Of a DNA stretch of 64,000 nucleotides, positions 10,809-38,952 are shown one piece after another. Both the position numbers and the translations under genes were made by a program. Every line of letters starts with the position of its first letter. Position 1 is the first letter of the stretch. Source of the stretch: Azospirillum ramasamyi (GTDB taxonomy: Bacteria > Pseudomonadota > Alphaproteobacteria > Azospirillales > Azospirillaceae); the NCBI RefSeq assembly GCF_003233655.1, contig NZ_CP029829.1:1808978-1872977 (forward strand), read 5' to 3'. The notes beneath the pieces were generated by a model that saw only the letters and a list, made by a program, of their open reading frames with translations, was not told where the DNA came from and ran no database searches.

Positions 10809-10829
10809 TAAACGCTGAACTTCCGCTTC

Positions 10830-10845: not shown

Positions 10846-10898
10846 TTTCTCCACTTCGTCCAACGGTGCCGCAGGGCACGGCAGGGAAGGAGTGGATG

Positions 10899-12461: not shown

Positions 12462-12511
12462 CGCCTTCCCTTTTCCTTTCCACAGCCATCCCATCACCCA
12501 AGGAGAGAGCC

Positions 12512-12703: not shown

Positions 12704-12711
12704 TGTTGACG

Positions 12712-12735
12712 CCCCTCTCCCCCGCGGGAGAGGGG
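12712..12735 (+). other. Intra-operon hairpin after fdxN
   Basis: CCCCTCTCCC pairs with GGGAGAGGGG around a CCGC loop, nine bases after the fdxN stop. There is no T run, so it probably protects or attenuates the upstream nifB-fdxN message rather than ending it. Confidence 0.55.
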
Positions 12736-12756
12736 GAACCCCAGGAGCACCGCGCC

Positions 12757-13272
12757 ATGCTGGACGAGGTGGATGAGGACTGGCTCGCCCGCCGCTACTA
12801 CGGCGGGGATCTTCCGCCCGAAGCGGAACGCTGCCTGCATCTGGCCGCCGCCAGCTATGCCGACAGCGGGACGGCGCTTGCCCATCTCGCCCGCGCGGCG
12901 GAGGTCGCCCCCGGCCATCATCTCGTCGATCTCGGCCATTACAAGTTCCACTTCTACAAGGCCGATCTCGACCAGGCCCTGGTCTATGGCGAACGCATGA
13001 TCGGACACGCCATGGCCGCGCTCGGCGTCAACCACACCGACTGGCGCGCCGTCACCCCCGCCACCGCCGATTTCCGCGGGCTGGAGCCCGCGCCCCGCCT
13101 GTTCCTGTTCGCCCTGGTCGCCATCGGCTACCTGCTGCTGCGCACCGGCCGGCTCGATGCCGGGCGGGAGGCGCTGGGCAAGGTCAGCCAGCTCGACCCC
13201 GACGACCGCTTCGGCGCCGCCCGCCTGATCGCCATTGCCGACCGGCATGAGTGCGAGGAGGCCGGCGCATGA
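12757..13272 (+). CDS. Nif-associated TPR-like protein
   Basis: A 171-residue cytoplasmic protein. ATG 12757 is preceded by AGGAG ten bases upstream. It is built of helical hairpins resembling tetratricopeptide repeats, for example GTALAHLARAAEVAPGHH, DLDQALVYGERMIGHAMA and AGREALGKVSQLDPDDRFGA. Such proteins recur between fdxN and the LRV gene in diazotrophs of this group, but no biochemical role is established. Its stop overlaps the next start (ATGA at 13269), which indicates translational coupling with the LRV protein and perhaps a joint complex. Confidence 0.8.
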   Translation: MLDEVDEDWLARRYYGGDLPPEAERCLHLAAASYADSGTALAHLARAAEVAPGHHLVDLGHYKFHFYKADLDQALVYGERMIGHAMAALGVNHTDWRAVTPATADFRGLEPAPRLFLFALVAIGYLLLRTGRLDAGREALGKVSQLDPDDRFGAARLIAIADRHECEEAGA

Positions 13273-14093
13273 GCGACGACATCCTGGAATCCCTGGATTG
13301 GCGCGGCGCGCCGGTGGACTGCACCGTCTGTGCCCACCGCGACCGCCGCCTCGACCCCGGAACCGCCGCCCTCCCCTCAGGCGGCAAGCTGGACGGCCGC
13401 TGCCTGCCGCTGAAAGCCTGCGTGCAGGACCGCTATGCCAAGCGCATCCAGCGCTTCTTCGAATGGAACCCGGATCTGTCCGCCGACCATCTCGACCATC
13501 CCTATTTCGAAGTGCGGGCGAACGCCGCGCGTTTCGCCCCGATCTTCCAGCTGCCCCGGCTGATGAGCGACCCGGACGAGACGGTGCGCTCGGTCCTGGC
13601 CCGCCGGCTGCCGCGCCGGCTGCTGCTGAAGCTGCGCGACGATCCCGACCGCGAGGTGCGGATCGCCGTCGCCTCCCGGCTGGAGGATGCCGACCTCGCC
13701 CCGCTGATGCGCGACCGCGACTGTTCGGTGCGGCTGCGCGTGGTGCGGCGGATCCCCGACGGCATGCTGCCGGCGATGATGCATGACGAGGACCCGGAGG
13801 TGCGGGTGGAGGTCGCCCGCCGCCTTTCGATGGACTGGCTGCCCAGCCTCGCCTGGGACGACAGCCCGCGGGTGCGGCTGGTGGTGGCGCAACGTCTGCC
13901 GCCGTCGAAGCTGCATGTCCTGCAGCAGGATACCGATTGGATGGTCCGCCTCGCCGTCGCCGGGCGGATCGACGCCGGGCAGCTCGGCCCTCTGCTCGAC
14001 GACCCGGAGGAGGAGGTGCGCGCCATCGCCCGCCAGCGCGCCGCCGGCTTCGCCGCGGGCCTCACCATCGCCAACGACCTTCCGCCGCTGTAG
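13269..14093 (+). CDS. LRV iron-sulfur protein
   Basis: A 274-residue protein like the leucine-rich-repeat-variant (LRV) protein of Azotobacter vinelandii. The N-terminal domain has four cysteines (C18, C21, C45, C51) for a [4Fe-4S] cluster. From about residue 75 onwards come tandem units of about 24 residues with the pattern DPDxxVRxxLARRL (SDPDETVRSVLARRL, DDPDREVRIAVASRL, HDEDPEVRVEVARRL), forming a right-handed helical superhelix. The substrate is unknown. The gene sits in a nif operon and overlaps the TPR gene by four bases. I prefer ATG 13269 over 13251 because of that overlap. Confidence 0.9.
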   Translation: MSDDILESLDWRGAPVDCTVCAHRDRRLDPGTAALPSGGKLDGRCLPLKACVQDRYAKRIQRFFEWNPDLSADHLDHPYFEVRANAARFAPIFQLPRLMSDPDETVRSVLARRLPRRLLLKLRDDPDREVRIAVASRLEDADLAPLMRDRDCSVRLRVVRRIPDGMLPAMMHDEDPEVRVEVARRLSMDWLPSLAWDDSPRVRLVVAQRLPPSKLHVLQQDTDWMVRLAVAGRIDAGQLGPLLDDPEEEVRAIARQRAAGFAAGLTIANDLPPL

Positions 14094-25403: not shown

Positions 25404-25418
25404 GAAGTGGGGGGCGGC

Positions 25419-28223
25419 ATGGGCGTCGGGCTCGATTGGGGCACGGTCCTGGTCGTCGCGCTGGCCTACCTGTCCGCCCTGTTCGCCATCGCCCATTGGG
25501 CCGACCGGCGCGAGGCGGCGGGGCGCAGCGTCATCGCCTCCCCTACCATCTTCGCCCTGTCCCTGGCGGTCTACTGCACGACCTGGACCTTCTACGGTTC
25601 GGTCGGGCGGGCGGCGACGCTGGGGATCGGCTTCCTGCCGGTCTATCTCGGCCCCACCCTGCTGATGCTGCTGGCCCCGCTGCTGCTGCGCAAGATCCTG
25701 CGCATCGCCAAGGCGCAGCGCATCACCTCCATCGCCGATTTCCTGTCCAGGCGCTACGGCCACAGCCCCCTGCTGGGCGGGCTGGTGGCGCTGACCGCCA
25801 CCGTCGGCGTCACCCCCTACATCGCCTTGCAGCTGAAGGCGGTCGCCGTCAGCTTCGACGCGCTGACCGGCGGCGGGGTGGAAACGACCCATGCCCTTTT
25901 TCTCGACCAGGGATTCCTGATCGCGGCGGTGATGGCGCTGTTCGCCGTCGTCTTCGGCGCCCGCCAGATCGACGCGGCGGAGCATCACCCCGGCATGGTC
26001 GCGGCAATCGCGCTTGAATCGCTGGTGAAGCTGGTCGCCTTCCTGGCGGTCGGCATCTTTGTGGTCTGGGGCCTGCACGGCGGGCTGGACACGCTGTTCG
26101 CCGCCGCCGGCGCCCGCCCGGATCTCGCCCGGCTGTTCGGCGGGGACATCGCGCTGGAAGGGGCGGCCTCCGGCGTGTGGGTCACCACCATCATCCTGTC
26201 GGCGGCGGCGATGCTGTGCCTGCCGCGCCAGTTCCAGGTGATGGTCATCGAATCGGTCAACGAACGCCAGCTCGACCGCGCCATCTGGCTGTTCCCGCTC
26301 TATCTTCTGCTGATCAACCTGTTCGTCCTGCCGGTGGCGCTGTCGGGATTGCTGACCTTCGGCGAGCGGATCGACCCGGACCTGTTCATGGTCGCCCTGC
26401 CCCTGCATGGCGGGGCGGAGTGGCTGGCCCTGCTGGCCTTCCTCGGCGGATTGTCGGCGGCGGCGGGGATGATCGTGGTGGAGTCGGTCGCGCTCTCCAC
26501 CATGCTGTGCAACGACCTCGTGGTGCCGGCGCTGCTGCGTTTCCGGCCGGCGGCGCTGGCCCGCTCGGCCGATCCGGCGCCGCTGCTGCTGACGATCCGG
26601 CGGGTCGCCATCGTCGCGATCCTGATGTTCGGCTACGGCTATCACCGGCTGGCGGGGTCGGCCTATGCGCTGGTGTCGATCGGGCTGATCTCCTTCGCGG
26701 CGGTGGCGCAGTTCGCCCCGGCCCTGATCGGCGGGCTCTATTGGCGCGGAGCGACCCGGCGCGGCGCCATCGCCGGGGTGGCGGCCGGCACGCTGGTCTG
26801 GGCCTACACGCTGCTGCTGCCCAGCTTCGCGCGGTCGGGCTGGCTGCCCACCAGCTTCATCGCCGACGGGCCGTGGGGCATCGCGGCGCTGCGTCCCTAT
26901 GCCCTGTTCGGGCTGGAGGGCTGGGATCCGCTGGCCCACGCCTTGTTCTGGAGCGCGCTCGCCAACATCGGCGCCTATGTCGGGCTGTCGCTGTTCGACC
27001 GGCCGGACGCGGCGGAGCGGGCGCAGGCAGCCGCCTTCGTCGACGTGTTCGAGCCGGGCGCCGCCGCCATGCCGCCGACCTCCCCGGCGGACTGGCGCAG
27101 CGCTGCCAGCGTCGGCGATCTGACCCGCGTGGTCGCCCGGTTCCTCGGCCCGCAACGCGCCGAACAGGCTTTCGCTGGCGCCGACCCGGACGAGCCGGCG
27201 GGACCGGAACGGCTGCGGCTGGCCGAACGGCTGCTGGCCGGTGCCATCGGCGGGGCGTCGGCGCGGGTGGCGCTCGCCTCCTCCGTTTCGGCGGGGGCGG
27301 TCGAGGCGGCCGAGCTTCTGCGCATGCTGGACGAAACCAGCGACGTCATCGCCCACAGCCGCCAGCTGGAGCTGAAGACGGCGGAGCTGGAGCGCGCCAC
27401 CGACGCGCTGCGCGCCGCCAACGACCGGCTGACCGAACTCGACCGGCTGAAGGACGATTTCCTGTCGACGGTGACGCATGAGCTTCGCACGCCGCTGACC
27501 TCGATTCGCGCCCTCAGCGAGATCCTGCACGACGATCCCGACCTGGAAACCGAACAGCGGCAGGAGTTCCTGGCCGTCATCATCAAGGAGAGCGAGCGGC
27601 TGACCCGCCTGATCAACCAGGTGCTCGACATGGCGAAGATCGAGGCCGGCGCGCTCGACTGGCGGATCGGGGTGATCGACCCGGCCCTTCTGCTGACCCA
27701 GGCGGTCGCGGCGACGGAAGCGCTGTTCCGGGAGCGCGGCATCGTCCTGTCGGTGGACATCCCCGGCAACCTGCCGCCGGTGCGCGGCGACGAGGACCGG
27801 GTGATCCAGGTGGTGGTGAACCTGTTGTCCAACGCCGCGAAATTCACGCCCGCCGACGGCCGGACCCGGCTGGAGGCGAAGCTGGACGGGGACGCGCTGC
27901 GAATCACCGTGATCGACAGCGGCCCGGGGGTGGCGCGGAAGGACCGCAACATCGTGTTCGACCGTTTCCGCCAGGCCGGCGACATGCTGACGGGCAAGCC
28001 GGCCGGCACCGGCCTGGGACTCGCCATCGCCAAGCGCATCGTCGAGCATCTGGGCGGCCGGATCGGGGTGGAGGACGCTCCCGCCGGGCTCGACGCCGAA
28101 TCGGGCAAGGGAGCCGCCTTCTGGTTCACCCTGCCGCTTGCGGGGCAGCTAGCGGAACCGCTTGCCGCACAGCCTGCCGATCCGCTCCCCGATGCGCGGC
28201 CGCCACGGAGCGTCGCCGATTGA
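25419..28223 (+). CDS. SLC5-type symporter fused to a histidine kinase (CbrA-like)
   Basis: A 934-residue inner-membrane protein. About 13 membrane helices of the solute:sodium symporter fold take up residues 5-510 (FALSLAVYCTTWTFYGSVGR and RITSIADFLSRRYG are family hallmarks). A STAC domain follows (about 570-640: LTRVVARFLGPQRAEQAF), then a coiled coil and an intact kinase core with the acceptor in VTHELRTPLTSIRALSEI (about 686) and HATPase boxes DSGPGVARKD and GTGLGLAIAK. It resembles CbrA, which links carbon-source uptake to gene control. It ends the coupled run from 22586. ATG 25419 is preferred; GTG 25407 is in frame but has its purine-rich site too close. Confidence 0.93.
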   Translation: MGVGLDWGTVLVVALAYLSALFAIAHWADRREAAGRSVIASPTIFALSLAVYCTTWTFYGSVGRAATLGIGFLPVYLGPTLLMLLAPLLLRKILRIAKAQRITSIADFLSRRYGHSPLLGGLVALTATVGVTPYIALQLKAVAVSFDALTGGGVETTHALFLDQGFLIAAVMALFAVVFGARQIDAAEHHPGMVAAIALESLVKLVAFLAVGIFVVWGLHGGLDTLFAAAGARPDLARLFGGDIALEGAASGVWVTTIILSAAAMLCLPRQFQVMVIESVNERQLDRAIWLFPLYLLLINLFVLPVALSGLLTFGERIDPDLFMVALPLHGGAEWLALLAFLGGLSAAAGMIVVESVALSTMLCNDLVVPALLRFRPAALARSADPAPLLLTIRRVAIVAILMFGYGYHRLAGSAYALVSIGLISFAAVAQFAPALIGGLYWRGATRRGAIAGVAAGTLVWAYTLLLPSFARSGWLPTSFIADGPWGIAALRPYALFGLEGWDPLAHALFWSALANIGAYVGLSLFDRPDAAERAQAAAFVDVFEPGAAAMPPTSPADWRSAASVGDLTRVVARFLGPQRAEQAFAGADPDEPAGPERLRLAERLLAGAIGGASARVALASSVSAGAVEAAELLRMLDETSDVIAHSRQLELKTAELERATDALRAANDRLTELDRLKDDFLSTVTHELRTPLTSIRALSEILHDDPDLETEQRQEFLAVIIKESERLTRLINQVLDMAKIEAGALDWRIGVIDPALLLTQAVAATEALFRERGIVLSVDIPGNLPPVRGDEDRVIQVVVNLLSNAAKFTPADGRTRLEAKLDGDALRITVIDSGPGVARKDRNIVFDRFRQAGDMLTGKPAGTGLGLAIAKRIVEHLGGRIGVEDAPAGLDAESGKGAAFWFTLPLAGQLAEPLAAQPADPLPDARPPRSVAD

Positions 28224-28233
28224 TCGAACCCGT

Positions 28234-28248
28234 ATAATTATCATTCAC
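28234..28248. promoter_or_regulatory. 15-base motif shared with 38953
   Basis: AATTATCATTCACAA occurs here, just after the SLC5-kinase stop, and again identically at 38953-38967. Its complement (TTGTGAATGATAATT) contains GATAAT as in Fur-type boxes. A 15-base AT-rich identity is unlikely by chance in such GC-rich DNA. The role is unknown. Confidence 0.4.
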
Positions 28249-28478
28249 AACCATCTCGCCGCGTTGCAATCCCGTGTTATCCTCCCGGCCGGCCGATCGT
28301 GATGATCGATTGGGGGATTGCCGTCATGCAGCCTGATCCAGGCTTGCGGCCACAGTGCCATGCAACCGGTGGGGCACCGTACGCCACGGTGCTTCCCGTA
28401 TGGGCTATCCACGCATATGGTGGTGCGCCCGGATCCGGTTGCGGCACGGGCCGGGCGGGTTGGCGGTAGGAAGGCGGG

Positions 28479-30146
28479 ATGGGAAAGATTCTGGTTGTCG
28501 ACGACGAGAGGGACGTCGAAACGCTGATCATGCAGCGTTTCCGTCGCGCCGTCCGGGCCGGTGAACTGGAGTTCCTGTTCGCCCATGACGGGCAGGAGGC
28601 GCTGGAAACCCTGCGCGCCCAGCCCGACATCGACATGGTGCTGAGCGACATCAACATGCCGGGGATGGACGGGCTGACGCTGCTCGACCATCTGCCGCAG
28701 GTGAATGCCGACATCCGCGCGGTGATGGTCTCGGCCTATGGCGACCTGGGCAACGTGCGGGCGGCGATGAACCGCGGCGCCTTCGACTTCATCATAAAGC
28801 CCATCGATTTCGGCGATTTGGAAGCCACCATCCACAAGACGCTGGAGGCCTGCCGCGCCGTGCGGCGGCTGCGCGACGCACTGCAGGAAACCAGGACGGC
28901 GGAAGCCGCGTCGCGCGCCCAGGCCGCCCGCCTGCGCCGGGTGCTGGACGGCAGCCCCATCGGCGTGTCGATCATCACCGAAGCCGGCGAGCTGCTCTAC
29001 AGCAACCAGCGCTGCACCGACCTGTTCGGCGTGCCGGCGGAGGCGATGCAGCAATGCTGCTCCCCCACCCTGTTCCGCCATGTGCAGGAAAGGCTGCCCG
29101 ACCGCCCGCCCGGGGCCGTGCCCGCGGCGGACGAAATCCACTTCTTGCGCAAGGACGGGCGGACGGTGTGGATGGCGATGTCCGTCGACCGCACCACCTA
29201 CGAGAACCAGCCCGTCTTCATCGTCTGGCTCTACGACATCACCGAACGCAAGGTGCAGGCGGAGGCGTTGCGCAGCGCCAAGGATTCGGCCGAACAGGCC
29301 CTGGCCGATCTGGAGCGCATGCAGTCCGACCTGATCCGGGCGGAGAAGATGGCGGTGATCGCCCAGCTGATCGCCGCGGTCGCACACGAGATCAACACGC
29401 CCGTCGGCATCGCGCTGACCGCCGCCACCCATCTGCAGACGGCGTCGGAAGCGATCATCATGACCTTCAACGGCGGCCAGCTGCGCAAGAGCGACTTCCA
29501 GGACTATGTCGGTACGGCCAGCGAGGTTTCCACCCTGCTGGTCGCCAACATCGAACGCGCCGCCGCCCTGATCCAGAGCCTGAAGCTGGTGACGGAGGGC
29601 AAGGCCAATTCGCCGCGCAGCCGCGTCGGCCTGCGCGACTACCTGTCGGACATCGTGCTGGCGGTGCAGGTGCAGGCGTCGGCGGCGGGGCACCAGCTGT
29701 CCCTCGACTGCCCGGACGGGCTGGCGCTGGACACCTATCCCGGCGCGCTGACCGAGGTGCTGCTGGCCCTGCTGACCAACGCCTTCGCCCATGCCTTCGA
29801 TCAGGCGCCGGCGGCCGCCGACATCGGCGCGGATGCCGGGTATGGGATGCTGGAGGATGCGACCGCCCGCCGGCCCGGCGGCAAGGTAACGGTTTCGGTG
29901 CGGATGCTGGAAGAGGACCGGGTGGAACTGCGCGTGTCCGACAACGGCCGCGGCATCCCGGCCGACATCCGGCCGCGGCTGTTCCAGCCCTTCACCACCA
30001 CCCGCCGCGGTGCCGGCAGCATGGGGCTGGGGCTCTACGCCGTGTTCAATCTGGTGACCGGCAAGCTCGGCGGCGAGATCGACATCGACAGCGAGCTCGG
30101 CTGCGGAACCAGCGTCGTCCTGCGGCTGCCGCTGGATGCGCCCTGA
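28479..30146 (+). CDS. Receiver-PAS-histidine kinase
   Basis: A 555-residue soluble protein. An N-terminal receiver (1-125) has ILVVDDERDV, the acceptor Asp in DMVLSDINMPGMDG and Lys in FIIKPID. A PAS domain follows (about 150-265, ending FIVWLYDITERK), a coiled coil, and a kinase core whose acceptor is in AAVAHEINTPVGIA (about 302). The HATPase has SDNGRGIPADI and GLGLYAVFNLVTGKLGG. The receiver-first order is typical of kinases inside phosphorelays. AAGG precedes ATG 28479. It has no membrane part, so its input probably comes from another kinase, for instance one of its neighbours. Confidence 0.93.
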   Translation: MGKILVVDDERDVETLIMQRFRRAVRAGELEFLFAHDGQEALETLRAQPDIDMVLSDINMPGMDGLTLLDHLPQVNADIRAVMVSAYGDLGNVRAAMNRGAFDFIIKPIDFGDLEATIHKTLEACRAVRRLRDALQETRTAEAASRAQAARLRRVLDGSPIGVSIITEAGELLYSNQRCTDLFGVPAEAMQQCCSPTLFRHVQERLPDRPPGAVPAADEIHFLRKDGRTVWMAMSVDRTTYENQPVFIVWLYDITERKVQAEALRSAKDSAEQALADLERMQSDLIRAEKMAVIAQLIAAVAHEINTPVGIALTAATHLQTASEAIIMTFNGGQLRKSDFQDYVGTASEVSTLLVANIERAAALIQSLKLVTEGKANSPRSRVGLRDYLSDIVLAVQVQASAAGHQLSLDCPDGLALDTYPGALTEVLLALLTNAFAHAFDQAPAAADIGADAGYGMLEDATARRPGGKVTVSVRMLEEDRVELRVSDNGRGIPADIRPRLFQPFTTTRRGAGSMGLGLYAVFNLVTGKLGGEIDIDSELGCGTSVVLRLPLDAP

Positions 30147-30202
30147 TCCCGTGGCCCCTGATCTTGCAGGCCCTCATCCTGCCGCACCCTGATCCTGCCC
30201 GG
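30143..30202 (+). repeat. 15-bp tandem repeat across a stop codon
   Basis: Four units beginning CTGATC, CTGATC, CTCATC and CTGATC at 30143, 30158, 30173 and 30188, with consensus CTGATCCTGCNGGCC. The first unit contains the TGA stop of the receiver-PAS-kinase gene. The next gene starts 55 bases later. Its possible effect is on mRNA between the two kinase genes. Confidence 0.7.
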
Positions 30203-30257
30203 TAACCGGCAGGAGCCGGCAGAAGCCCTGTGGACGACATCTTCGGGATCCTTGCCC

Positions 30258-31979
30258 ATGCATGACAAGACCGAGTTGCTGCGATCCCTGCCCCCGCTGT
30301 CGTCCTATTCCCCGGAGGAGTCGGTGGCGCATTCTCTGGACCGGGCGCGGCTCTACCATGACCAGCTGGTCGCGGCGATGCCGGGCCTGATCGTCCACCG
30401 CGACGGCGTGATCCTCCATTGCAGCGGCACACTGGCCCGCCTGCTGGGCTACCAGTCGGCCGAACAGGTGATGGCCCTGCCCGATGTCATGGCTCTGGTC
30501 CCGGACGATGCCCGTCTGGCGGAGCGCAACGCCTATGCCCGTTGCCTGGAAAGTCCGGCCCAGCCGCTGGCCCGCCGCATCAAGCGCCACCGCGCCGACA
30601 CCAGCATCCAGTGGTTCGACCAGTTGCTGGAGCCCGTGGATTGGGGCGGCACCCCCGCGGTGATGGAGATGCTGACCCAGATGCGTCCCGAGGCCGCCAA
30701 TGCCGAGGTGCCGCATCAGGGGCAATTGCTGCAGGCGGCCATCGACGCCATGCCCAACGGCGTGCTGATGCTGGACCGCGACCTGCGCCTGGAAGGGGCC
30801 AACAGCGAGTATTTCCGGCTGTGGGACTATCCCCCCGGCATGTTCCCCCCCGGCACCCCGGTGGCCGAGACGCTCTATTACAATCACCGGCGCGGCGATT
30901 ACGGCGACGTGCCCTGCGAGGAGACAGTGGCGGAGCTGTGTACCCGCTTCCTGGTCAAGGGCGTCATCAATTCCGAACGCCAGGTGCCGACGAACGGCCG
31001 CATCCTGGACATCCGCACCGCACCGCGCGCCGACGGCGGTTACGTCATCACCCAGCACGACATCACCGACCGCAAGCGCATCGAGGATGAATTGCGGGAG
31101 GCCAAGGAGCGGGCCGAAGCGATCCTGAAGGAGCTGCGCGAGACCCAGCAGCAGCTGATCGTGCAGGAGAAGATGGCATCGCTCGGCCAGCTCACCGCGG
31201 GCATCGCCCACGAGCTGAAGAACCCGCTGAACTTCGTCAACAACTTCGCCGAACTGTCGGAAGAGTTGCTGGACGAGACGCTGGCGCTGCTGGAGCCGCT
31301 GAACGACCATCTGGACGATGCGACCCGCGCCGACGTGGACGAACTGGTCGGCAACCTGCAGAGCAACCTGCGCAAGATCGCCGACCATGGCCGGCGCGCC
31401 GACAACATCGTCAAGAGCATGCTGGCCCATTCGCGCGGCGGCGGCGGCGAATGGCAGACGACCGACCTGAACGCTTTGGTGGAAGAGGCGCTGTCGCTGT
31501 CCTACCACGCCGTACGCGCCCAGGACCGTAACTTCAATGCCACGTTGGAGCGTCGATTCGCCGGGGATGTGGGTGAGGTGAAACTGGTTCCGCAGGACAT
31601 GTCGCGTGTCCTGGTCAACCTGTTCACGAACAGCTTTTACGCGATCCGCAAGCGGCAGCTGACCAGCGGCGATCCGGTTTACGAACCGACTCTGACGGTT
31701 TCAACCGAAGCGAGAGGAACTGAGGTCTCAATAATAATTCACGACAATGGCGTCGGCATGTCACCCGCCGTGATCGATAAACTGTTCACGCCTTTTTTCA
31801 CCACGAAGCCCACCGGCGAGGGAACCGGCTTAGGACTTTCGCTCAGCTATGACATCGTGGTACATCAGCACAGAGGCCGTTTCGACGTATTCAGCATCGA
31901 AAATGAGCACTCCGAGTTTACGATCACGCTGCCACGAACCGTGACGGCTATGTCGCTAGGGGAGCGCCGAAAGACATGA
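30258..31979 (+). CDS. PAS-domain histidine kinase
   Basis: A 573-residue soluble kinase. Two PAS-like regions come first (about 35-130, and about 155-275 starting LLQAAIDAMPNGVLMLDRDL and ending VITQHDITDRKR; the second is of the PAS_7 type seen with FRLWDYP). A coiled coil leads to the acceptor region AGIAHELKNPLNFVNNFAEL (about 315) and an HATPase with HDNGVGMSPAVI and GEGTGLGLSLSYDIV. ATG 30258 is chosen over TTG 30252; neither has a strong ribosome site. The last 300 bases are visibly less GC-rich than the rest. The stop overlaps the next start (ATGA), coupling it to the receiver at 31976, its likely partner. Confidence 0.92.
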   Translation: MHDKTELLRSLPPLSSYSPEESVAHSLDRARLYHDQLVAAMPGLIVHRDGVILHCSGTLARLLGYQSAEQVMALPDVMALVPDDARLAERNAYARCLESPAQPLARRIKRHRADTSIQWFDQLLEPVDWGGTPAVMEMLTQMRPEAANAEVPHQGQLLQAAIDAMPNGVLMLDRDLRLEGANSEYFRLWDYPPGMFPPGTPVAETLYYNHRRGDYGDVPCEETVAELCTRFLVKGVINSERQVPTNGRILDIRTAPRADGGYVITQHDITDRKRIEDELREAKERAEAILKELRETQQQLIVQEKMASLGQLTAGIAHELKNPLNFVNNFAELSEELLDETLALLEPLNDHLDDATRADVDELVGNLQSNLRKIADHGRRADNIVKSMLAHSRGGGGEWQTTDLNALVEEALSLSYHAVRAQDRNFNATLERRFAGDVGEVKLVPQDMSRVLVNLFTNSFYAIRKRQLTSGDPVYEPTLTVSTEARGTEVSIIIHDNGVGMSPAVIDKLFTPFFTTKPTGEGTGLGLSLSYDIVVHQHRGRFDVFSIENEHSEFTITLPRTVTAMSLGERRKT

Positions 31980-32371
31980 CCCTGGGAATCCTCGTCGTCG
32001 ATGACGAACCGGATATCGAGGATCTGTTCCGTCAGCGCTTTCGCGCAGAATTGCGCCGTGGAGAACTGGCCCTTCATTTCGCTTCTTCTGGAGAGGAGGC
32101 GCTCGAATGCTTGTCCACCGGCCTGCAACCGGAGGCTGTTCTTGTCCTGAGCGATATCAATATGCCCGGCATGAGTGGGCTTGACTTTCTGCAGCGCCTC
32201 CGCGCGGACGCCCCGCAGGTGCCGGTCATCATGGTCACCGCCTATGGCGACACCGAAAACCGCCAGCGCGCGCTGGACATCGGCGCGACCGAGCTTGTGA
32301 CCAAGCCCGTCGATTTCGTCGCCCTGAAAAAGCTGGTCCAGAGCGTCATCGTCCAGAAGACGGCGGCTTAA
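31976..32371 (+). CDS. Single-domain response regulator
   Basis: A 131-residue receiver. Motifs are [18 protein letters not shown], the acceptor Asp in LVLSDINMPGMSG, Thr in VIMVTAYGD and Lys in LVTKPVDF. It is similar in style to the receiver at the front of the 28479 kinase, including the QRFRAELRRGEL segment, which suggests that the two arose by duplication. It overlaps the preceding kinase by four bases. With no output domain it probably passes phosphate onward or binds a protein target. Confidence 0.93.
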   Translation: MTLGILVVDDEPDIEDLFRQRFRAELRRGELALHFASSGEEALECLSTGLQPEAVLVLSDINMPGMSGLDFLQRLRADAPQVPVIMVTAYGDTENRQRALDIGATELVTKPVDFVALKKLVQSVIVQKTAA

Positions 32372-32383
32372 CGCCCTCCCCGT

Positions 32384-32431
32384 CAGCGGCTTCAAGTGAA
32401 GCACACATCCAAGGCAATCGTTAAGCCGCTG
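32384..32431. terminator. Possible shared hairpin between convergent operons
   Basis: CAGCGGCTT (32384-32392) pairs with AAGCCGCTG (32423-32431) around a 30-base loop, in the 79-base gap between the convergent regulator and sulfur-transfer genes. The loop is large and T runs are weak, so function is uncertain. Confidence 0.3.
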
Positions 32432-32450
32432 GAATCAGCCGACCCTTGCG

Positions 32451-33608
32451 TCATCCCGCACAGACCGCCGCGATGTCGCTCAACTCCGGCCGTGCGCCCG
32501 CCGAACAGGACGGGCAGTCCGGATCGGCCGGAACCGCGATCTCGTTGAACTCGCCGCGCAGGCCGTCATAGAGCAGCAGGCGGCCGGCCAGCGGTTCGCC
32601 CAGGCCCAACAGCAGCTTGATCGTCTCGGCCGCCATGATGGTGCCGATCACGCCGGGCAGCACGCCCAGCACGCCGGCCTCGGCGCAGGACGGCGCGTAT
32701 TCGGCCGGCGGCGGTTCCGGGAACAGGCAGCGATAGCAGGGCCGCAGCCCCGGCGCGGCGCCGCCGAACACCGACACCTGCCCCTCGAAGCGGAAGATCG
32801 CGCCATAGACGTTCGGCACACCCAGCCGCAGGCAGGCGTCGTTGACCAGGTAGCGCGTCGGCAGGTTGTCGGACCCGTCGACCACGACATCGTGCCCGGC
32901 CAGCAGGTCCAGCACATTGGCGGCCTCCAGCCGCGTGTCGTGCGACACCACCTCGATGGTCGGGTTGAGGTCGAGCAGGGCGGCGCGGCCGCTTTCCACC
33001 TTGCGCTGGCCCAGCCGGCTTTCGGCATGGAGGATCTGGCGCTGCAGGTTGCTGCGCTCCACCCGGTCGTCGTCGATCAGGGTCAGGCGGCCGACCCCCG
33101 CGGCGGCGAGATAGAGCGCGATCGGCGATCCCAGCCCGCCGGCGCCGATCAGCGCCACGCGGCTGCGCAGCAGCCTGTGCTGACCGGCCTCCCCCACCTC
33201 CGGCATGGTCAGGTGGCGGCGGTAGCGCTCGCGCTGGGCGGCGTCGAACTGCGGCGGCACCTCCACCGGCAGACCCGCGGCCTTCCAGGCGGAAAAGCCG
33301 CCGGCGACCGACCGCACATCCTCATAGCCCAGCCGCAGAAGATCCTCCGCCGCGAACAGCGACCGGGTGCCGCCGGCGCACATCAGCAGGACGGGGCACG
33401 CCGGGTCGGGAGCCTTCTCCTCGATCCGCAGTTCCAGGAAGCCGCGCGGCAGGCGGAGCGCTCCGGCGGGGCTGCCTGTCGCCGTCTCCTCATCCTCGCG
33501 GACATCGACGAGCACGGCGCCGTCCCGTTGCAGGGCGAGCGCGTCGGCGGCGGTCACCTCCGCGATGCGGGCGCGCAGATCGGCAAGGCGCCGGTCCTTC
33601 AAGCTCAT
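32451..33608 (-). CDS. Rhodanese-E1 fusion (MoeB/ThiF-like sulfurtransferase-adenylyltransferase)
   Basis: A 385-residue protein. The N-terminal rhodanese domain (about 15-115) has its active cysteine C77 in LLMCAGGTRS. The E1-like domain (about 122-370) has the nucleotide loop VALIGAGGLGSP (155-160), ERSNLQRQI with the adenylation Arg, GSDN with the metal Asp, and zinc pairs C291/C294 and C365/C368. The known MoeBR and Uba4 proteins carry the rhodanese at the C-terminus, so the order is reversed here. It should adenylate the Gly-Gly end of the carrier made by the upstream gene (33622-33906) and give it sulfur. The gene is last in the YcaO/TfuA operon, 13 bases after the carrier gene. Confidence 0.9.
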   Translation of the reverse strand: MSLKDRRLADLRARIAEVTAADALALQRDGAVLVDVREDEETATGSPAGALRLPRGFLELRIEEKAPDPACPVLLMCAGGTRSLFAAEDLLRLGYEDVRSVAGGFSAWKAAGLPVEVPPQFDAAQRERYRRHLTMPEVGEAGQHRLLRSRVALIGAGGLGSPIALYLAAAGVGRLTLIDDDRVERSNLQRQILHAESRLGQRKVESGRAALLDLNPTIEVVSHDTRLEAANVLDLLAGHDVVVDGSDNLPTRYLVNDACLRLGVPNVYGAIFRFEGQVSVFGGAAPGLRPCYRCLFPEPPPAEYAPSCAEAGVLGVLPGVIGTIMAAETIKLLLGLGEPLAGRLLLYDGLRGEFNEIAVPADPDCPSCSAGARPELSDIAAVCAG

Positions 33609-33621
33609 GTCGAGACGCTCC

Positions 33622-33906
33622 TCAACCGCCCGCCAGGGCGACCATCAGGGTCAGGGTGGCGCCGGCCGGCAAGGCCGCCTCCAGCCCGCCCAGCCGCCGC
33701 ACGTCGTCCCGGCCGAGATAGACGTTCACGAAACGGCGCAACTCGCCTTCGGCGGTGAACAGCCGGTCACGGAAGGCGTCCTGCCCGGCGGTCAGCGTCG
33801 ACAGCGCCTCGCGCACCGTGGCACCCGGCACCGTCACCTGATCGCGCCCGCCGACGAATCCGCGCAACGGGGTCGGCAGGCGGATGGTCACCTCTGCGGT
33901 CGTCAC
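33622..33906 (-). CDS. ThiS/MoaD-like sulfur carrier
   Basis: A 94-residue ubiquitin-fold protein. It has the beta-grasp pattern AEVTIRLPTPLRGFVGG, VTVPGATVREALSTL, RFVNVYLGRDDVR and AGATLTLMVALAGG. The exposed C-terminal Gly-Gly is the required site for adenylation and thiocarboxylate formation. Its length and the INxN-like FVNVY segment place it nearer to MoaD/CysO-like carriers than to ThiS. Start ATG 33906 overlaps the TfuA stop by four bases. Next to a YcaO-TfuA pair, its most likely job is to carry sulfur for thioamide formation rather than for thiamine or molybdopterin. Confidence 0.88.
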   Translation of the reverse strand: MTTAEVTIRLPTPLRGFVGGRDQVTVPGATVREALSTLTAGQDAFRDRLFTAEGELRRFVNVYLGRDDVRRLGGLEAALPAGATLTLMVALAGG

Positions 33907-35330
33907 GTCTGTATCTCCTCTTCCGGCACCGGCTCCCGAGACGCCGCCTCGGCCTGGGTCTGGGTCTGGGCCAGCACCGCCTCCGCCTCCACCGCCAATT
34001 GGCGGAACAGGTCGCGCACCTGCTTGGCCCGCATCAGGTCGATGCGCAGATCCAGCAGATCCTTGAAACCATATTCATAGGACCAGACGTCGGCCGGCGC
34101 ATCGACCCGGCAGGCGGTGTTGGCGACATGCTCGGCCAGCAACTGTTCCACCGTTTCCTTGGGCTGGCGGCTGGCATCACCGAAATGCAGCTCCATCACC
34201 CGGTCGACCAGCGCCGCCTCCTCGGCGGTGGACTCATAAAGCCCGCGCAGCCGCAACTCGTTCAGCACCGGCTTGGTCGTGCGCGCCAGGAAACGGCGCG
34301 GGATCAGCCACAGCCGCATCGCCCGCTCGATGGCCAGTTCGGTCATCAACTCGCTGAACTCGGCATCGGTCAGGTCGTTGCGCCGGCACCAGTCGGCCAG
34401 CGCCTCCGCCCCGGCTAGGCCGCGCATGGCGCAGAAACGTTGGGTTTCCTTGCGCACCGCCGCCTCGTCCACCGTGACGCCCATGACCTCGGCGAACTGG
34501 CGGATCAGCAGGCGGCCGAGTGCGGCATTGTTGATCTCGGCGAAGTCGGCCCGGTGCAGGGCGGCGTGGGACGCGATCTCAGACAGCGGCACGGTGTTGC
34601 CGCCATGGCAGACGCGGCGGTCGCGCTCGTACAGCACGTCGAAGTAATGGGACGCGTTGAAGTCGAAGGGCGCCGGCCGCGGCGGCGTGATCAGGCTGGC
34701 GAGATGGCCGAGCAGAACCTCCGCGTCGCGGCGCTTCTGGTCGACCGCGCCGGTTTCCAGGAAGCGTTCCAGCCGGTCGGTCTCCTCCCGGCTCAGCCCG
34801 GCCTCGGCAAGGACGCGGTCGCGGGTGCGTTCGGTGAAGTACAGCGCCTTCGCGGCGGCGATCACCCGGTCGTGCAGGCTCCGGTCCACCGCATCGGCGG
34901 CCAGCGCCGCGGCCATGCTCGCACGCAGGTTCACCAGCGGCTCCGACAGCGGGAACCAGCCGTCTTCCGGCCCGGCATGGGCCAGCGCCACCTCGTCGTC
35001 ACCGGTCAGCCGGCCGTCGATATAGCCGCGGGCCACCTCGCCGACCGGCACCATGCCGAATGGATGGCATTCGGCCGCCCGCAAGGCGCCCATGCTGGAC
35101 GCGCCGTAGACCGCCACGCCCTTGTGCAGGGCATAAAGGATTTCCTTGTGCCAGACCGACAGCGACTGGCCGAACACCCCGTCGATCAGGGCGATCACGT
35201 CCGGCCGGTGGATGGTCATGGCGCTGATGATGTCGGCCTGCGCCGCCGGCGGCAGAAAGACCGCCCCCGGCAGGATGGCACGGGCATCCTCCACCGGCAT
35301 GGTGGGCCCCAGGAACACACAGATCTTCAT
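33903..35330 (-). CDS. TfuA-domain protein
   Basis: A 475-residue protein whose first about 190 residues are a typical TfuA domain: KICVFLGPTMPVEDARAIL, FLPPAAQADI, VIALIDGVFGQSLSVWHKEI, YGASSMGALRAAECHPFGM and ARGYIDGRLTGDDEVALAH. TfuA is named after trifolitoxin and partners with YcaO in thioamidation of peptides and of methyl-CoM reductase. The remaining 280 residues are helical and not recognised; they are much longer than in minimal TfuA proteins and could bind the repetitive substrate. The start overlaps the YcaO stop by four bases (ATGA). Confidence 0.9.
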   Translation of the reverse strand: MKICVFLGPTMPVEDARAILPGAVFLPPAAQADIISAMTIHRPDVIALIDGVFGQSLSVWHKEILYALHKGVAVYGASSMGALRAAECHPFGMVPVGEVARGYIDGRLTGDDEVALAHAGPEDGWFPLSEPLVNLRASMAAALAADAVDRSLHDRVIAAAKALYFTERTRDRVLAEAGLSREETDRLERFLETGAVDQKRRDAEVLLGHLASLITPPRPAPFDFNASHYFDVLYERDRRVCHGGNTVPLSEIASHAALHRADFAEINNAALGRLLIRQFAEVMGVTVDEAAVRKETQRFCAMRGLAGAEALADWCRRNDLTDAEFSELMTELAIERAMRLWLIPRRFLARTTKPVLNELRLRGLYESTAEEAALVDRVMELHFGDASRQPKETVEQLLAEHVANTACRVDAPADVWSYEYGFKDLLDLRIDLMRAKQVRDLFRQLAVEAEAVLAQTQTQAEAASREPVPEEEIQT

Positions 35331-36643
35331 GCCACCGATCCCACTTGCGCCTGCGATGCGTGCGCCTTCAGCGCCTCCGCGAAAGCCAGCGGACGCGCAC
35401 CCGGAGTGTAGAAGTCGAACTGATAGCCTTCCAGCCCCGGCACCAGCACGCGCACCACCGGAATGCCGATCTCCGGCAGGGTCAGGTCGAAGACGAGCGC
35501 CTGCCCGATCCCGGCGCGGCGCAGCACGGTCAACAGGATGGTGATGTCGCCTTCGAAGGTCGGGGTGGCATGGTTGAGGTGGCGCCGGCCATCGGTGTTG
35601 ATCGGCGTCGCCTCCAGCGCCGCGATCTCGGCACTGCCGTCGGCATTCTGGTTGCGGACCAGATCGCGGCGGAAGAAGTCGTCGCGCGATCCGGCGATCA
35701 GGACCAGCCGCGACTGCACCGCTTCGGTCAGGGCGCGGCACATGGCGACCGCCGGCTCCAGATGGCTGCCATAGCCGCGGTTCATGCCGGTCTTGCGCAG
35801 TTCGCGGTCATAAACGATGGCCATGTAGCTCGGCACGCCCATGTCCGTGGTGACGTCGAACAGCAGCGGACGGATACCGGCCAACTCGAAGCGGTGCAGC
35901 AGATCGCGGACGGACGGCGCGTCGATGCTGGCCAGATCGACCCGCGGCGTCGGCCAGTTCAGCCGGTCGCCGGCATAGCGCCAACAGGCGACGGAATCGC
36001 GCTCGATCACCTCGTAAAGGCCGGCGGCGATCGCCTCCAGGATATGGTTGCCGCTGGCCAGCCCGTTGGTGCCCATGGCGTAGAAGCTGCGGGCGCCCGG
36101 CTTGGTGCCCGGCGGCATGCTGTGCAGCCCGACCGAGGTCCAGGGCGCGGCGACCGGACGGCCGCTCATCAGATCCCAGCCCCAGGTCCAGATTTCCGGC
36201 CGGTCGGGGCGGAAGGCGCCGTGCTTGGTCCCCGGCAGCCGGTCCAGCGGGATGCGGCCATCCGCCGGCAGGTCGTTCCACGCCGCCTCGACATGGGGCA
36301 GGCGCAGATGCTCGGCATGGTGGAACTCGATCGCCTCCATCGCGGCGGAAACGGTCGCGGCGGCGAGGCTGAAGCCCTTTCCGGCGCTGCCCGATAGGGT
36401 CGGACTGTTCGGCCGGTGCCCGATGACGGTGTGGATGCCCAGGCGGTCCAGCCCGGTCACGTCGGCCAGCCGCGTGATGCCGCAGCGGGCGAAATGGGGC
36501 GAGATGCGGGCCAGCGTCTCTTCCGGCGTCGCCGTGCGGTGGGTGCCTAGGAAGAAGCGCTTGGCGGCGCGGTGGACGGTGTCGCCCAGGCGAATGCCGG
36601 GAAACTCCGGATAGACGGTATCGGGCGATGCGCTGTCAGCCAT
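35327..36643 (-). CDS. TfuA-type YcaO cyclodehydratase/thioamide synthetase
   Basis: A 438-residue YcaO enzyme, which uses ATP to activate a peptide-bond oxygen. ATP-site motifs are SAGKGFSLAAATVSAAMEAI (with E-x-x-E), LYEVIERDSVACW, and the late TEAVQSRLVLIAGSRDD helix. The C-terminus lacks the Pro-rich tail (PxPxP) of azoline-forming YcaO proteins, and the set of motifs matches the TfuA-associated thioamidating branch. No E1-like partner domain is fused. It overlaps the TfuA gene and lies 122 bases after the repeat-protein gene. ATG 36643 is chosen; GTG 36715 would add an unconserved 24 residues. Confidence 0.92.
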   Translation of the reverse strand: MADSASPDTVYPEFPGIRLGDTVHRAAKRFFLGTHRTATPEETLARISPHFARCGITRLADVTGLDRLGIHTVIGHRPNSPTLSGSAGKGFSLAAATVSAAMEAIEFHHAEHLRLPHVEAAWNDLPADGRIPLDRLPGTKHGAFRPDRPEIWTWGWDLMSGRPVAAPWTSVGLHSMPPGTKPGARSFYAMGTNGLASGNHILEAIAAGLYEVIERDSVACWRYAGDRLNWPTPRVDLASIDAPSVRDLLHRFELAGIRPLLFDVTTDMGVPSYMAIVYDRELRKTGMNRGYGSHLEPAVAMCRALTEAVQSRLVLIAGSRDDFFRRDLVRNQNADGSAEIAALEATPINTDGRRHLNHATPTFEGDITILLTVLRRAGIGQALVFDLTLPEIGIPVVRVLVPGLEGYQFDFYTPGARPLAFAEALKAHASQAQVGSVA

Positions 36644-36725
36644 GGGATGGGTCAGGACTCGCGGCTCCGGCCGGTTCGGGGGAGTTGGAATGCAATCCCG
36701 CGGAGTGCGGGACACCGAGGGGCGG

Positions 36726-36756
36726 GGCCGGCCGTCTCCCGCAGGAACGGCCGGCC
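36726..36756 (-). other. Strong hairpin between the repeat-protein gene and YcaO
   Basis: GGCCGGCCGT (36726-36735) and ACGGCCGGCC (36747-36756) form a perfect 10-bp stem with an 11-base loop, ten bases after the repeat-protein stop. No U run follows on the minus strand. Such a hairpin can stabilise the upstream mRNA and lower read-through, giving more substrate than enzyme. Confidence 0.65.
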
Positions 36757-36765
36757 TTCATCCTA

Positions 36766-37932
36766 TCACGCCTCGGTCGTGGGGTCGTCGCTCGCCGCCG
36801 CAGGCCCCTGCGACGCGGAGGCCGACGCCCCCGGAGTGGCCGCGGCGGAGGTGGCCGACGCAGAAGTCGCCGACGCGGACATCGCCGACGCGGAGTGAGC
36901 AGAGGCCGGAGCGGCGACCGCCGAGAAGGCCGGAGCCGGAACCGCGGACGCCGATTGCGCCGCAGCCGAGAAGGCGGATGCCGGAGCGGCGACCGCCGAG
37001 AAGGCCGGGGCCGGAACCGCGGACGCTGACTGCGCCGCAGCCGAGAAGGCGGATGCCGGAGCGGCGACCGCCGAGAAGGCCGGGGCCGGAACCGCGGACG
37101 CCGACTGCGCCGCAGCCGAGAAGGCGGACGCCGGAGCGGCGACCGCCGAGAAGGCCGGAGCCGGAACCGCGGACGCCGATTGCGCCGCAGCCGAGAAGGC
37201 GGATGCCGGAGCGGCGACCGCCGAGAAGGCCGGGGCCGGAACCGCGGACGCTGACTGCGCCGCAGCCGAGAAGGCGGATGCCGGAGCGGCGACCGCCGAG
37301 AAGGCCACCGGGGTCGGAACCGCGGACGCCGACTGCGCCGCAGCCGAGAAGGCGGATGCCGGAGCGGCGACCGCCGAGAAGGCCGGGGCCGGAACCGCGG
37401 ACGCCGACTGCGCCGCAGCCGAGAAGGCGGATGCCGGAGCGGCGACCGCCGAGAAGGCCGGAGCCGGAACCGCGGACGCCGACTGCGCCGCAGCCGAGAA
37501 GGCGGATGCCGGAGCAGCGACCGCCGAGAAGGCCACCGGGGTCGGAACCGCAGAGGCCGACTGCGCAGAGGCCGAGAAGGCGGGTGCAGGAGACGCCGAC
37601 GCGGAGGTAGCCGAAGCCGAGGTGGCCGAGGCTGAAGTCGCCGAGGCGGAAGTCGCCGAAGCGGAAGTCGCCGAGGCCGATGTGGCCGAAGCGGAAGCAG
37701 CCGTGGCAATCGATTCGACCGCCACGCCGCTGTCCAAGCCGCTCTCCTTGCCGGTCAAGGAATTGAAGGCATCGGCGGCGGCGCTGCGGACATGGTCGGG
37801 AAGAACCCCGCCGAAGCCGCTCTGCGCCAGCAGCGCCTGTTTGCCCTGAATATCGAGGGCGTTCAGCTGATTACGGAATTCGCCGTCGGTGGCGAGACGC
37901 TTAATGAGGGCGAGTGCCTGTTCCTTGGCCAT
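36766..37932 (-). CDS. Nif11-like leader plus giant Ala/Ser/Pro repeat; candidate RiPP precursor
   Basis: A 388-residue protein. Residues 1-52 resemble a Nif11-type leader: MAKEQALALIKRLATDGEFR, NQLNALD, then LLAQSGFGGVLPDHV, with the Gly-Phe near the end of the domain. A short linker follows (to about 76), then seven SASAT-type units (about 79-113), then eight complete 25-26-residue units (129-330) flanked by partial ones, then a SASAT-like tail and an acidic end (SDDPTTEA). There is no Cys, Lys or Arg after residue 62. A very good AGGAGGGG site precedes ATG 37932. It lies first in the operon with YcaO and TfuA, so it is the obvious substrate. It could instead be a structural or surface protein; no export signal is visible. 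Confidence 0.82.
   Translation of the reverse strand: MAKEQALALIKRLATDGEFRNQLNALDIQGKQALLAQSGFGGVLPDHVRSAAADAFNSLTGKESGLDSGVAVESIATAASASATSASATSASATSASATSASATSASATSASASPAPAFSASAQSASAVPTPVAFSAVAAPASAFSAAAQSASAVPAPAFSAVAAPASAFSAAAQSASAVPAPAFSAVAAPASAFSAAAQSASAVPTPVAFSAVAAPASAFSAAAQSASAVPAPAFSAVAAPASAFSAAAQSASAVPAPAFSAVAAPASAFSAAAQSASAVPAPAFSAVAAPASAFSAAAQSASAVPAPAFSAVAAPASAFSAAAQSASAVPAPAFSAVAAPASAHSASAMSASATSASATSAAATPGASASASQGPAAASDDPTTEA
36898..37593 (-). repeat. 75/78-bp tandem repeats in the precursor core
   Basis: Copies of GCCGAGAAGGCGGA-type sequence recur at 36965, 37040, 37115, 37190, 37265, 37343, 37418, 37493 and 37571, i.e. a 75-base period with two 78-base intervals. Each protein unit is itself a doublet, FSAVAAPASA plus FSAAAQSASA, joined by VPAPA, or by VPTPVA in the two longer units. 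Copies differ by only a few mostly synonymous bases, so they were amplified or homogenised recently. Confidence 0.95.
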
Positions 37933-38250
37933 TTTCGGGCCCCTCCTGCAATCGGTCAGCCAATAAGGATTGCTGCGAATTGGTTACAACAACTAAACCA
38001 TTAGCATAGGCAATAATTAAAAATTCCAGCTAAACAGATAAGAATCTATGCGCAGTATCGAAATTTAACGTCCATGCCGAGCCTGACCCGGCCCTGAGAC
38101 GGCCGTGAGGCACGCAGATGGCGCAGAACAGGCGCAGCGGCCCCCGATCATGGGCCGCAATCGTCATCGGGAGCGATGCGACCGCTTCAAACGCATACAT
38201 ATGGGGGGACATTGGGTGTCGCGGGCCGCGACTCGGACGGAAAAGCGGCC
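37933..38250 (-). promoter_or_regulatory. Leader and promoter region of the YcaO/TfuA operon
   Basis: A 318-base gap. Its left part (about 37960-38070) is the most AT-rich stretch of the region and lies 30-140 bases before the precursor start, so the promoter is probably here. On the minus strand TTGTTG is followed 17 bases later by a weak TCCTTA. No sigma54 element or NifA site was found. The rest (38070-38250) holds nothing I can support. Confidence 0.45.
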
Positions 38251-38805
38251 TCAGCCGGCCGGTACGGCCGCCCGCCTCCGCGCCCGCCATTCCTCGCGCG
38301 TCTGGTGCCAGATGTCCGCCTCCGGCGGCTTGACAGGTTCAGGCAGCAGAGTGGTTCCGCGCACCTCGGCCCCCAGCCTGCGCGCAACCCGCTGCGAGGC
38401 CGTGTTGCGGGGATGGATGGTGTGGATGACCTCGGTCCAGCCGAGATTGTCGAACACCCAGTCGATGGCCGCGACGGCACTCTCGACCGCATAGCCGCGT
38501 CCCCAGCAGTCCCGCATGATCGCCCAGCCGACCTCCGGCCCCGGCCATCCATCCGGCACCCAGGGCCCGACCCGGCCGACCCAGCGGCCGCTCTCCTTCT
38601 CGATGACGGAGAACATGGCGAAGCCCTGGATCGACCAGGCGCCCGCCATCGACAGGAAGCCGCGCCAGGCGACGGGGCGCGATTGCAGGCCGCCGATGAA
38701 CTCGGTCGCGTCCGGATCGGTCATCATCGCCGCCCAGCCATCGAAATCCTCCGCCCGGGTCGGCCGCAGGATCAGACGAGCGGTTTCCAGAATCGGTTCA
38801 TCCAT
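38251..38805 (-). CDS. GNAT-family N-acetyltransferase (RimJ/RimL type)
   Basis: A 184-residue cytoplasmic enzyme. It starts ILETARLILRPTRAEDFDGW, the common opening of the Acetyltransf_3 group. The acetyl-CoA region is VGWAIMRDCWGRGYAVESAV (with the R/Q-x-x-G-x-G/A-like RDCWGRGYA loop), and the late HPRNTASQRVARRLGAEVRG is the typical NxxSxxvaerlGf end. The substrate is unknown; relatives modify protein N-termini or small molecules. ATG 38805 gives the usual N-terminus; ATG 38817 is possible. It reads in the same direction as the RiPP operon but 318 bases separate them. Confidence 0.88.
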   Translation of the reverse strand: MDEPILETARLILRPTRAEDFDGWAAMMTDPDATEFIGGLQSRPVAWRGFLSMAGAWSIQGFAMFSVIEKESGRWVGRVGPWVPDGWPGPEVGWAIMRDCWGRGYAVESAVAAIDWVFDNLGWTEVIHTIHPRNTASQRVARRLGAEVRGTTLLPEPVKPPEADIWHQTREEWRARRRAAVPAG

Positions 38806-38952
38806 GGAGGCCATCATCCCACCGACTCGACCCTCAGCAAAAAGCGCAGCCATGCCGAGAATACCTTTTCATAAAATACACGGAAAAAATGATGCGCGGA
38901 TCATTTACAACTGAAACATGTTGACGGCATTGGCTTCATCAACGGCCGGAAG

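Follow-up and report, generated by a model that had tools for sequence, protein, structure and literature searches.

Introduction

To our knowledge, the thioamidated ribosomally synthesized and post-translationally modified peptides (RiPPs) known so far are all short peptides. The YcaO family, whose members introduce such thioamides, also forms azolines and amidines. Going by the accessible parts of a recent paper, YcaO proteins that form thioamides generally use a thiocarboxylated ThiS homologue together with a TfuA hydrolase when their host does not live in a sulfide-rich habitat (PMC13063428, 2026). The thiovarsolins are described, in the available text, as thioamides made from a repeating precursor by a YcaO and a TfuA, encoded by varAYT of Streptomyces varsoviensis (PMC6511847). 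Haft et al. 2010 (PMC2887384, excerpts) named AZL_022710 of Azospirillum sp. B510 as a docking scaffold protein and AZL_022680 as a cyclodehydratase, and Malit et al. 2021 (PMC8120280, main text in part) reported TfuA-YcaO clusters with Nif11-like precursors and a MoeB gene in the legend of Figure 4. In this paper, we analyse a 64,000-nucleotide stretch of Azospirillum ramasamyi (contig NZ_CP029829.1), referred to as the window, in which five consecutive minus-strand genes encode a repeat precursor, a YcaO, a TfuA, a ThiS-like sulfur carrier and a rhodanese-E1 fusion. We consider it probable that this operon thioamidates the backbone of its own repeat protein, using a dedicated sulfur relay.

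Gene content of the operon

The operon comprises the following genes.

36766..37932, minus strand: predicted repetitive RiPP precursor, 388 aa, divided into a ~78-residue leader (37699-37932) and a ~310-residue core
35327..36643, minus strand: YcaO, 438 aa, predicted ATP-dependent activator of peptide amides (PF02624, 251 bits)
33903..35330, minus strand: long TfuA, 475 aa, with an N-domain of TfuA fold (residues 1-216) and a helical C-domain (~222-464)
33622..33906, minus strand: ThiS/MoaD-type sulfur carrier, 94 aa, ending in VALAGG (ThiS, 23.7 bits)
32451..33608, minus strand: rhodanese domain (residues 20-111, 48.6 bits) fused to a ThiF/MoeB-type E1 (129-366, ThiF 264 bits)

All of these domain scores, together with the 139 bits of TfuA, lie above the cut-off (22.5 for ThiS). 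YcaO and TfuA overlap by 4 bp, as do TfuA and ThiS, and 13 bp separate ThiS from the E1 gene. The gap between the precursor and the likely YcaO start is ~120 bp when YcaO is taken to begin at an inferred ATG at 36643; the open reading frame list instead begins it at a GTG at 36715. A preliminary description of this DNA had reported the five genes in a row, a TfuA-type YcaO adjacent to a TfuA protein, and the last four genes as overlapping or 13 bases apart, and each of these points was borne out. No Rfam RNA family was found across 32000-38900.

Distribution and ancestry

Our main sample consisted of 82 genomes of the family, and an order-wide search covered the identical 82. Full-length relatives of the TfuA (70-100% identity) are present in 24 of these genomes and a TfuA match of any kind in 62; the leader, searched independently with a 79-residue query, occurs in the same 24. 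The locus in the window was then compared with 23 other fetched loci. The preliminary description had suggested looking for the same five-gene order elsewhere, and the comparison reveals a conserved unit: YcaO, TfuA and ThiS stand in identical order at all 24 loci, the rhodanese-E1 follows ThiS at 21, and a leader-bearing gene lies beside YcaO at 15. At L039 the contig stops before the E1, and the same genome has E1 residues 97-384 where a different contig ends. A search of whole genomes places the dedicated E1 in 22 of the 24 carriers; the remaining 58 genomes lack it, 56 of them matching the E1 part alone at 45-56% identity and two not at all. Other carriers that have these proteins keep TfuA at 70-96% and E1 at 84-99% identity.

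That the distributions coincide indicates that the components of the system stay together. As proof of functional linkage on its own it was rejected, because the carrier label needs two changes on a housekeeping MoeB tree of 48 genomes (45 of the genus and three others), where 23 of the 24 carriers form one clade (100/99) and A. soli (G029) falls outside. Nine flanking genes of the window were also compared with ten of the 23 other loci; the kinase/regulator side is kept at nine of the ten and the glyQ side at eight, so the operon appears to have been inherited mainly vertically.

The repeat precursor

The core contains two arrays.

36905..37600, minus strand: tandem repeat of 75 bp (25 aa), unit AFSAVAAPASAFSAAAQSASAVPAP, 9.2 copies, 94% matches, score 1196
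37594..37697, minus strand: short SASAT-type repeats opening the core, 15-bp units, ~7 copies, from the tandem-repeat computation

The giant repeat noticed in the preliminary description consists of 9.2 long and about seven short units. Eight successive long units could be delimited, seven of 25 aa and one of 26 aa (...VPTPV). Among the 21 pairs of 25-aa units, the 26-aa unit being left out, there are 44 base differences, all of them synonymous and 0 non-synonymous, which indicates that the array is read in the precursor frame. This bears on the view that the operon is a clade-specific relic, unexpressed or decaying, whose repeat expanded by neutral slippage. The fast change of repeat number and sequence and the frame-shifted repeats at one locus (L049) would fit a relic, but the purely synonymous differences, the TfuA and E1 identities given above with their intact motifs, and the conservation at most loci of an upstream element and a post-stop stem-loop (described below) all point the other way, and we regard this explanation as very unlikely. 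At L049 (A. cavernae, 7625-10616) the main leader gene, and perhaps a second one too, is apparently frame-shifted in or after the repeats, by decay or sequencing error; its sequence was taken unaltered.

The leader is 59-94% identical to that of the window in the 11 other main leaders aligned, while the core changes completely between loci. Core types include AFSAVAAPASA..., ATPATAMPATA..., GIFAGQPAA..., AGFAAAGAPSPAASAAGM..., SSLFAVPATAQ... and AMPATANPAA..., with ASASMFGMPA and AIWSGAPAAS among truncated precursors. Main precursors range from 174 to 505 aa. Across 14 main cores (L049 excluded from the count), Ala, Ser, Gly, Pro and Thr account for 70-90% of residues, charged residues number only 0-7, and Cys is absent from 12; Ser and Thr together make up ~11-31% (85 of 310 residues in the window core, 14 of 96 in L041). 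Two features recur, a single hydrophobic residue amid small ones (AFS, GFA, AMP, LFA, IFA) and x-Pro-Ala, and judging by the sequences these motifs are candidate modification sites. At 10 of the 15 loci with a leader gene beside YcaO, a second leader-bearing gene, mostly shorter, lies upstream; the window genome has a single leader.

A protein search with precursor residues 1-75 gave no homologue at E<=1e-3, and in plasmid records there was no tblastn match to the precursor and only partial matches to TfuA. Assembly breaks or N gaps fall inside the precursor array at eight loci (L034, L035, L037, L044, L046, L048, L052 and L053), and the precursor will therefore in many cases be overlooked by gene-finding and RiPP-mining programs.

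RiPP precursors are seldom long Ala-rich chains of low complexity, and the repeat protein might instead be a structural or surface protein that is no substrate at all, with YcaO, TfuA, ThiS and E1 modifying another protein or peptide. Nine of 21 leaders do match an IniB N-terminal model weakly (best E 1.8e-4); the model is named for another protein, and a search for IniB in open-licence PMC papers returned unrelated word matches alone. RiPP leader models, however, match more of the 21, also weakly (TIGR04509 20, TIGR03798 16, Nif11 15), the leader and the full-length TfuA share one distribution, and a more distant locus (L084, see below) carries a related leader on a short peptide beside YcaO and a long TfuA. 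On balance, it seems quite improbable that the repeat protein is not a substrate.

Predicted modification enzymes

The ThiS-like carrier has 4n6e_B and 3dwg_C as its closest solved structures and ends in Gly-Gly at 24 of 24 loci. The rhodanese loop CAGG[TA]RS and the CYRC motif of the E1 are intact in all 21 E1 copies read. Since the window genome holds one further MoeB-type E1 and two further ThiS/MoaD genes, the carrier and E1 of the operon are an extra pair, which supports the dedicated sulfur relay proposed in the preliminary description. The best NCBIfam match of the YcaO is the YcaO of McrA-glycine thioamidation, with a score below the cut-off of that model.

The TfuA was modelled from 76 alignment rows at a pLDDT of 93.8, superseding a 12-row model at 74.5. 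The TfuA fold is present, and Ser79 and Lys199 are invariant in 76 sequences; TfuA is reportedly characterized by a Ser-Lys dyad, according to Liu et al. in 2021. The VIA-align rows mostly cover residues 1-220 and hardly probe the C-domain. At E<=1, the C-domain matches SurA_N_3 in eight of the 76 sequences (best E 0.018) and Trigger_C in four (best E 0.014). When ten TfuA proteins were run singly, three matched SurA_N_3 and one Trigger_C, all below cut-off and all in the same stretch, 272-345. In hhalign comparisons the best of ten targets for the C-domain was the genome's own PpiD-like protein, at a probability of 1.6%, no better than the 1.5% obtained for the unrelated N-domain control.

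Proposed pathway and product

Thioamidation of the repeat core is favoured because all parts of the published ThiS-TfuA-YcaO scheme are present, along with a rhodanese that would load the sulfur. The precursor would be made with its conserved Nif11/NHLP-like N-terminal segment as a putative leader. From what is known of the families, the rhodanese domain would take up persulfide sulfur, and the E1 would adenylate the C-terminal glycine of the carrier for conversion into a thiocarboxylate. By analogy with methanogen TfuA, and given the fold and the invariant Ser and Lys, the TfuA N-domain would free the carrier sulfur to YcaO, which would activate chosen amides with ATP so that sulfide replaces oxygen, probably at recurring positions, so that a single chain could bear many thioamides. 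The repeat chain, being disordered, may be held by the extended helical C-domain of TfuA in the manner of SurA or trigger factor, as the faint profile matches of this domain hint, and the stem-loop after the precursor may allow more precursor than enzyme to be made.

Several observations weigh against this reading. No product of the operon is known. The dedicated E1 is missing in two of the 24 carriers (G029 and G044), and with two changes on the MoeB tree the co-occurrence of the parts amounts to two events, not 24. The leader-bearing gene was found beside YcaO at only 15 loci, in one of them (L049) frame-shifted, because the assembly is broken or gapped at the remaining nine, where a contig end or gap lies in or near the array. 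Eight of the nine have a repetitive reading frame ending <=364 bp before the assigned YcaO start, and all nine genomes carry the leader elsewhere, be it on a different contig or at a separate position. The leader of the window falls short of the curated Nif11/NHLP models (the leader alone scores 22.7 where 23.8 is required; further scores are 17.9 for a cut-off of 32.3 in NCBIfam and 15.8 for one of 34), and the term ‘Nif11-like’ used in the preliminary description holds as a resemblance but not by family score. A 21-row alignment of the leaders reveals no conserved Gly-Gly cleavage site between leader and core. The E1 scores 585 bits with an NCBIfam model called MoeB, whose cut-off is 449, so its name alone provides no tie to thioamides.

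Distant loci add to these points. At E<=1, none of the 14 YcaO-TfuA loci outside the group (L085, L060-L062, L112-L117 and L118-L121, the contig of L113 being only 4.6 kb) has a match to the leader, ThiS or E1, although in ten of them (L085, L060-L062 and L112-L117) the TfuA frame is well above the usual 250 aa. Because L085, an Actinomycetes metagenome-assembled genome (MAG) with two YcaO and a full-length TfuA, and others lack leader, ThiS and E1, the sulfur relay is no constant partner of long TfuA. The preliminary description would have taken a consistent lack of the repeat protein in homologous operons as refutation: operons with a full-length TfuA of the window's type do not lack it, leader and TfuA sharing the same 24 genomes, but the more distant loci, with the exception of L084, do without leader, ThiS and E1 (14 of 14).

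The closest solved structure of the YcaO by sequence also counts against thioamidation, being the cyclodehydratase TruD (92.9 bits), just above MJ1094 (90.1), with MusD and LynD among the further matches. The repeat protein could be a YcaO substrate that receives a modification other than a backbone thioamide, such as azolines at Ser/Thr or an amidine, with the sulfur relay serving another step. The YcaO family makes both, the window core offers 85 Ser/Thr, and the DUF4135 (LanM-like) protein encoded at L084 suggests that side-chain dehydration may occur there. We nevertheless think such a modification unlikely, as Cys is absent from most main cores, Ser/Thr are few in some (L041), and TfuA with a thiocarboxylated carrier is linked to thioamides in the text available (PMC13063428).

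If thioamidation is correct, the product is likely a new kind of sulfur-modified natural product, apparently never isolated. It would mean that nature already makes long repeating polypeptides with backbone sulfur, and that a small four-enzyme set, bringing its own sulfur supply, acts on repeat cores of very different sequence. Such a set would be a permissive means of introducing thioamides into engineered proteins, and would provide an initial function to seek in plant-associated Azospirillum species. Two questions become directly testable, namely how YcaO-TfuA chooses its sites and how many sites are modified per chain. A bolder picture, which we put forward tentatively and with considerable doubt, is that of Azospirillum poly-thioamides with cores of ~100-430 residues and at least one backbone oxygen-to-sulfur exchange per repeat, supplied by the dedicated relay and threaded by a TfuA domain that acts like a chaperone. 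Lineages would freely invent new repeats for an otherwise unchanged machine, and the product would be a new sulfur-backbone protein material or a metal- or redox-active polymer.

Expression signals and flanking genes

Three further features surround or punctuate the operon.

37993..38012, minus strand: conserved 20-nt element TGCCTATGCTAATGGTTTAG preceding the start of the precursor gene, probably a promoter or regulatory site
36726..36756, minus strand: G+C-rich stem-loop just past the precursor stop, possible attenuator (window z -1.4)
30252..31979, plus strand: PAS-containing histidine kinase (Pfam), convergent neighbour, possible regulator

With <=4 mismatches, the element TGCCTATGCTATTGGTTTAG begins 73-80 nt before the main leader start codon at 12 of the 15 leader loci (window included) and has no further match in those loci; it is absent from L049, L054 and L055. 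A consensus scan of 32300-38300 found no sigma-70-type promoter, and terminators were no more frequent than in shuffles. Single folds, with the brackets read by eye, give a comparable post-stop stem-loop at 18 of 23 loci (L039 excluded), with z from -0.9 to -7.6 at these 18, calculated against mononucleotide shuffles alone, and weak at several; it is absent from L041, L047, L049, L054 and L055. Nine post-stop stretches chosen by hand aligned poorly in RNAalifold, with little covariation (two of ten pairs), and the stem-loop is therefore proposed from the single folds.

Of the 82 genomes, the 24 that hold the system are exactly those with a relative of the kinase at E<=1e-120, which ancestry explains in large part; in G013 the relative lies on a contig other than that of the operon. 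The convergent genes (25407-32371, plus strand) comprise three sensor kinases and one response regulator of a single domain. Of the nine window genes that flank the operon and were compared between loci, none was recognised as a transporter or protease, and two have no Pfam match.

Related and other YcaO-TfuA loci

Neither a class sample of 385 genomes nor a phylum sample of 398 gave a match outside the window's genus that spans the whole TfuA, the longest reaching residues 330-392. L112-L117 are the loci of six of these longest matches, and L118-L121 those of four shorter ones. Metagenome relatives are abundant, with 5,192 at E<=1e-20 among the 7,994 closest candidates scored, and the best 120 listed are 443-491 aa long. 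L084, from an uncultured alphaproteobacterial MAG, has a TfuA 41-42% identical. Its genes run in one direction (5109-13657) and encode a 93-aa peptide, two YcaO, the long TfuA, the DUF4135 protein, a ThiS ending in ALAGG and a rhodanese-E1. The peptide joins a related leader (E 1e-7) to a short Ser/Thr/Ala tail. The association of leader, long TfuA, carrier and rhodanese-E1 thus extends beyond Azospirillum to L084, where the core is short and lacks repeats, and the product is possibly a thioamidated and dehydrated peptide.

Other YcaO-TfuA loci have small or repetitive frames of their own. Elsewhere in the window's genome (L063, contig C5, 4064-6084), another YcaO is paired with a short TfuA of 250 aa and preceded by a small peptide that carries the motif RGADGRLYxV, and similar peptides precede other short-TfuA pairs (L057, L058, L059 and L065). 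Beside the pair at L118 (5979-7019, minus strand), a frame starting RGPDGVLYEVG with an AGRWA(I/V)(T/S)P repeat may represent a second, unrelated repeat-precursor family. Frames near YcaO-TfuA at L060 (10509-11357), L116 (10587-11189) and L119 (1969-2502) have a common ‘AR(I/A)YGF...GxY...(V/L)(H/D)GDG’ region, and that of L119 ends in VSGAR repeats. A frame at L120 (10007-10909) also contains a short tandem repeat (SRAVM) but bears no clear relation to the L060, L116 and L119 frames.

Comparison with known systems

The preliminary description knew of no described product with this architecture. This holds for the combination: in the portions of open-licence PMC papers searched, we found no giant variable repeat protein described with ThiS and a rhodanese-E1. 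It does not hold for the parts, which appear in the accessible text of PMC13063428, PMC6511847 and PMC2887384. None of the open-licence PMC papers joins TfuA and Azospirillum; those pairing ‘thioamid-’ with Azospirillum concern, as listed, methanobactins and Acetobacteraceae, and those pairing TfuA with ‘tandem repeat’ are, by title, on other subjects.

Some of the genes have been seen before. AZL_022700 of Azospirillum sp. B510 is the long TfuA of the system, and from the tag order around it, AZL_022710 and AZL_022680 should be the YcaO and E1 of the same locus. The leader resembles the Nif11/NHLP leaders of RiPP precursors in PMC2887384, which in the excerpts available leaves the fate of the Azospirillum NHLP peptides open and does not describe the repeat protein, TfuA or carrier. 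The clusters of PMC8120280 come, as far as its available main text goes, from Desulforegula, Anabaena, Rhizobium, Simkania and Ruegeria, with ‘Azospirill’ and ‘repeat’ absent from that text, and their precursors are stated to have a Gly-Gly motif, unlike those of Azospirillum.

In methanogens, YcaO-TfuA (structure 6xp8) thioamidates one glycine of an enzyme, McrA, whereas a repeat protein is the likely substrate in Azospirillum, and the operon scores below the McrA equivalog cut-offs. The thiovarsolin cluster shares a YcaO, a TfuA and a repeating precursor peptide (PMC6511847, available text). The thiovarsolin precursor has five imperfect repeats with an APR motif, which is absent from the window precursor sequence, whereas the 388-aa Azospirillum precursor has nine 25-aa repeats in addition to shorter ones. 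The Azospirillum system further differs in its other type of leader, the extra domain of its TfuA, and a ThiS and rhodanese-E1 of its own.

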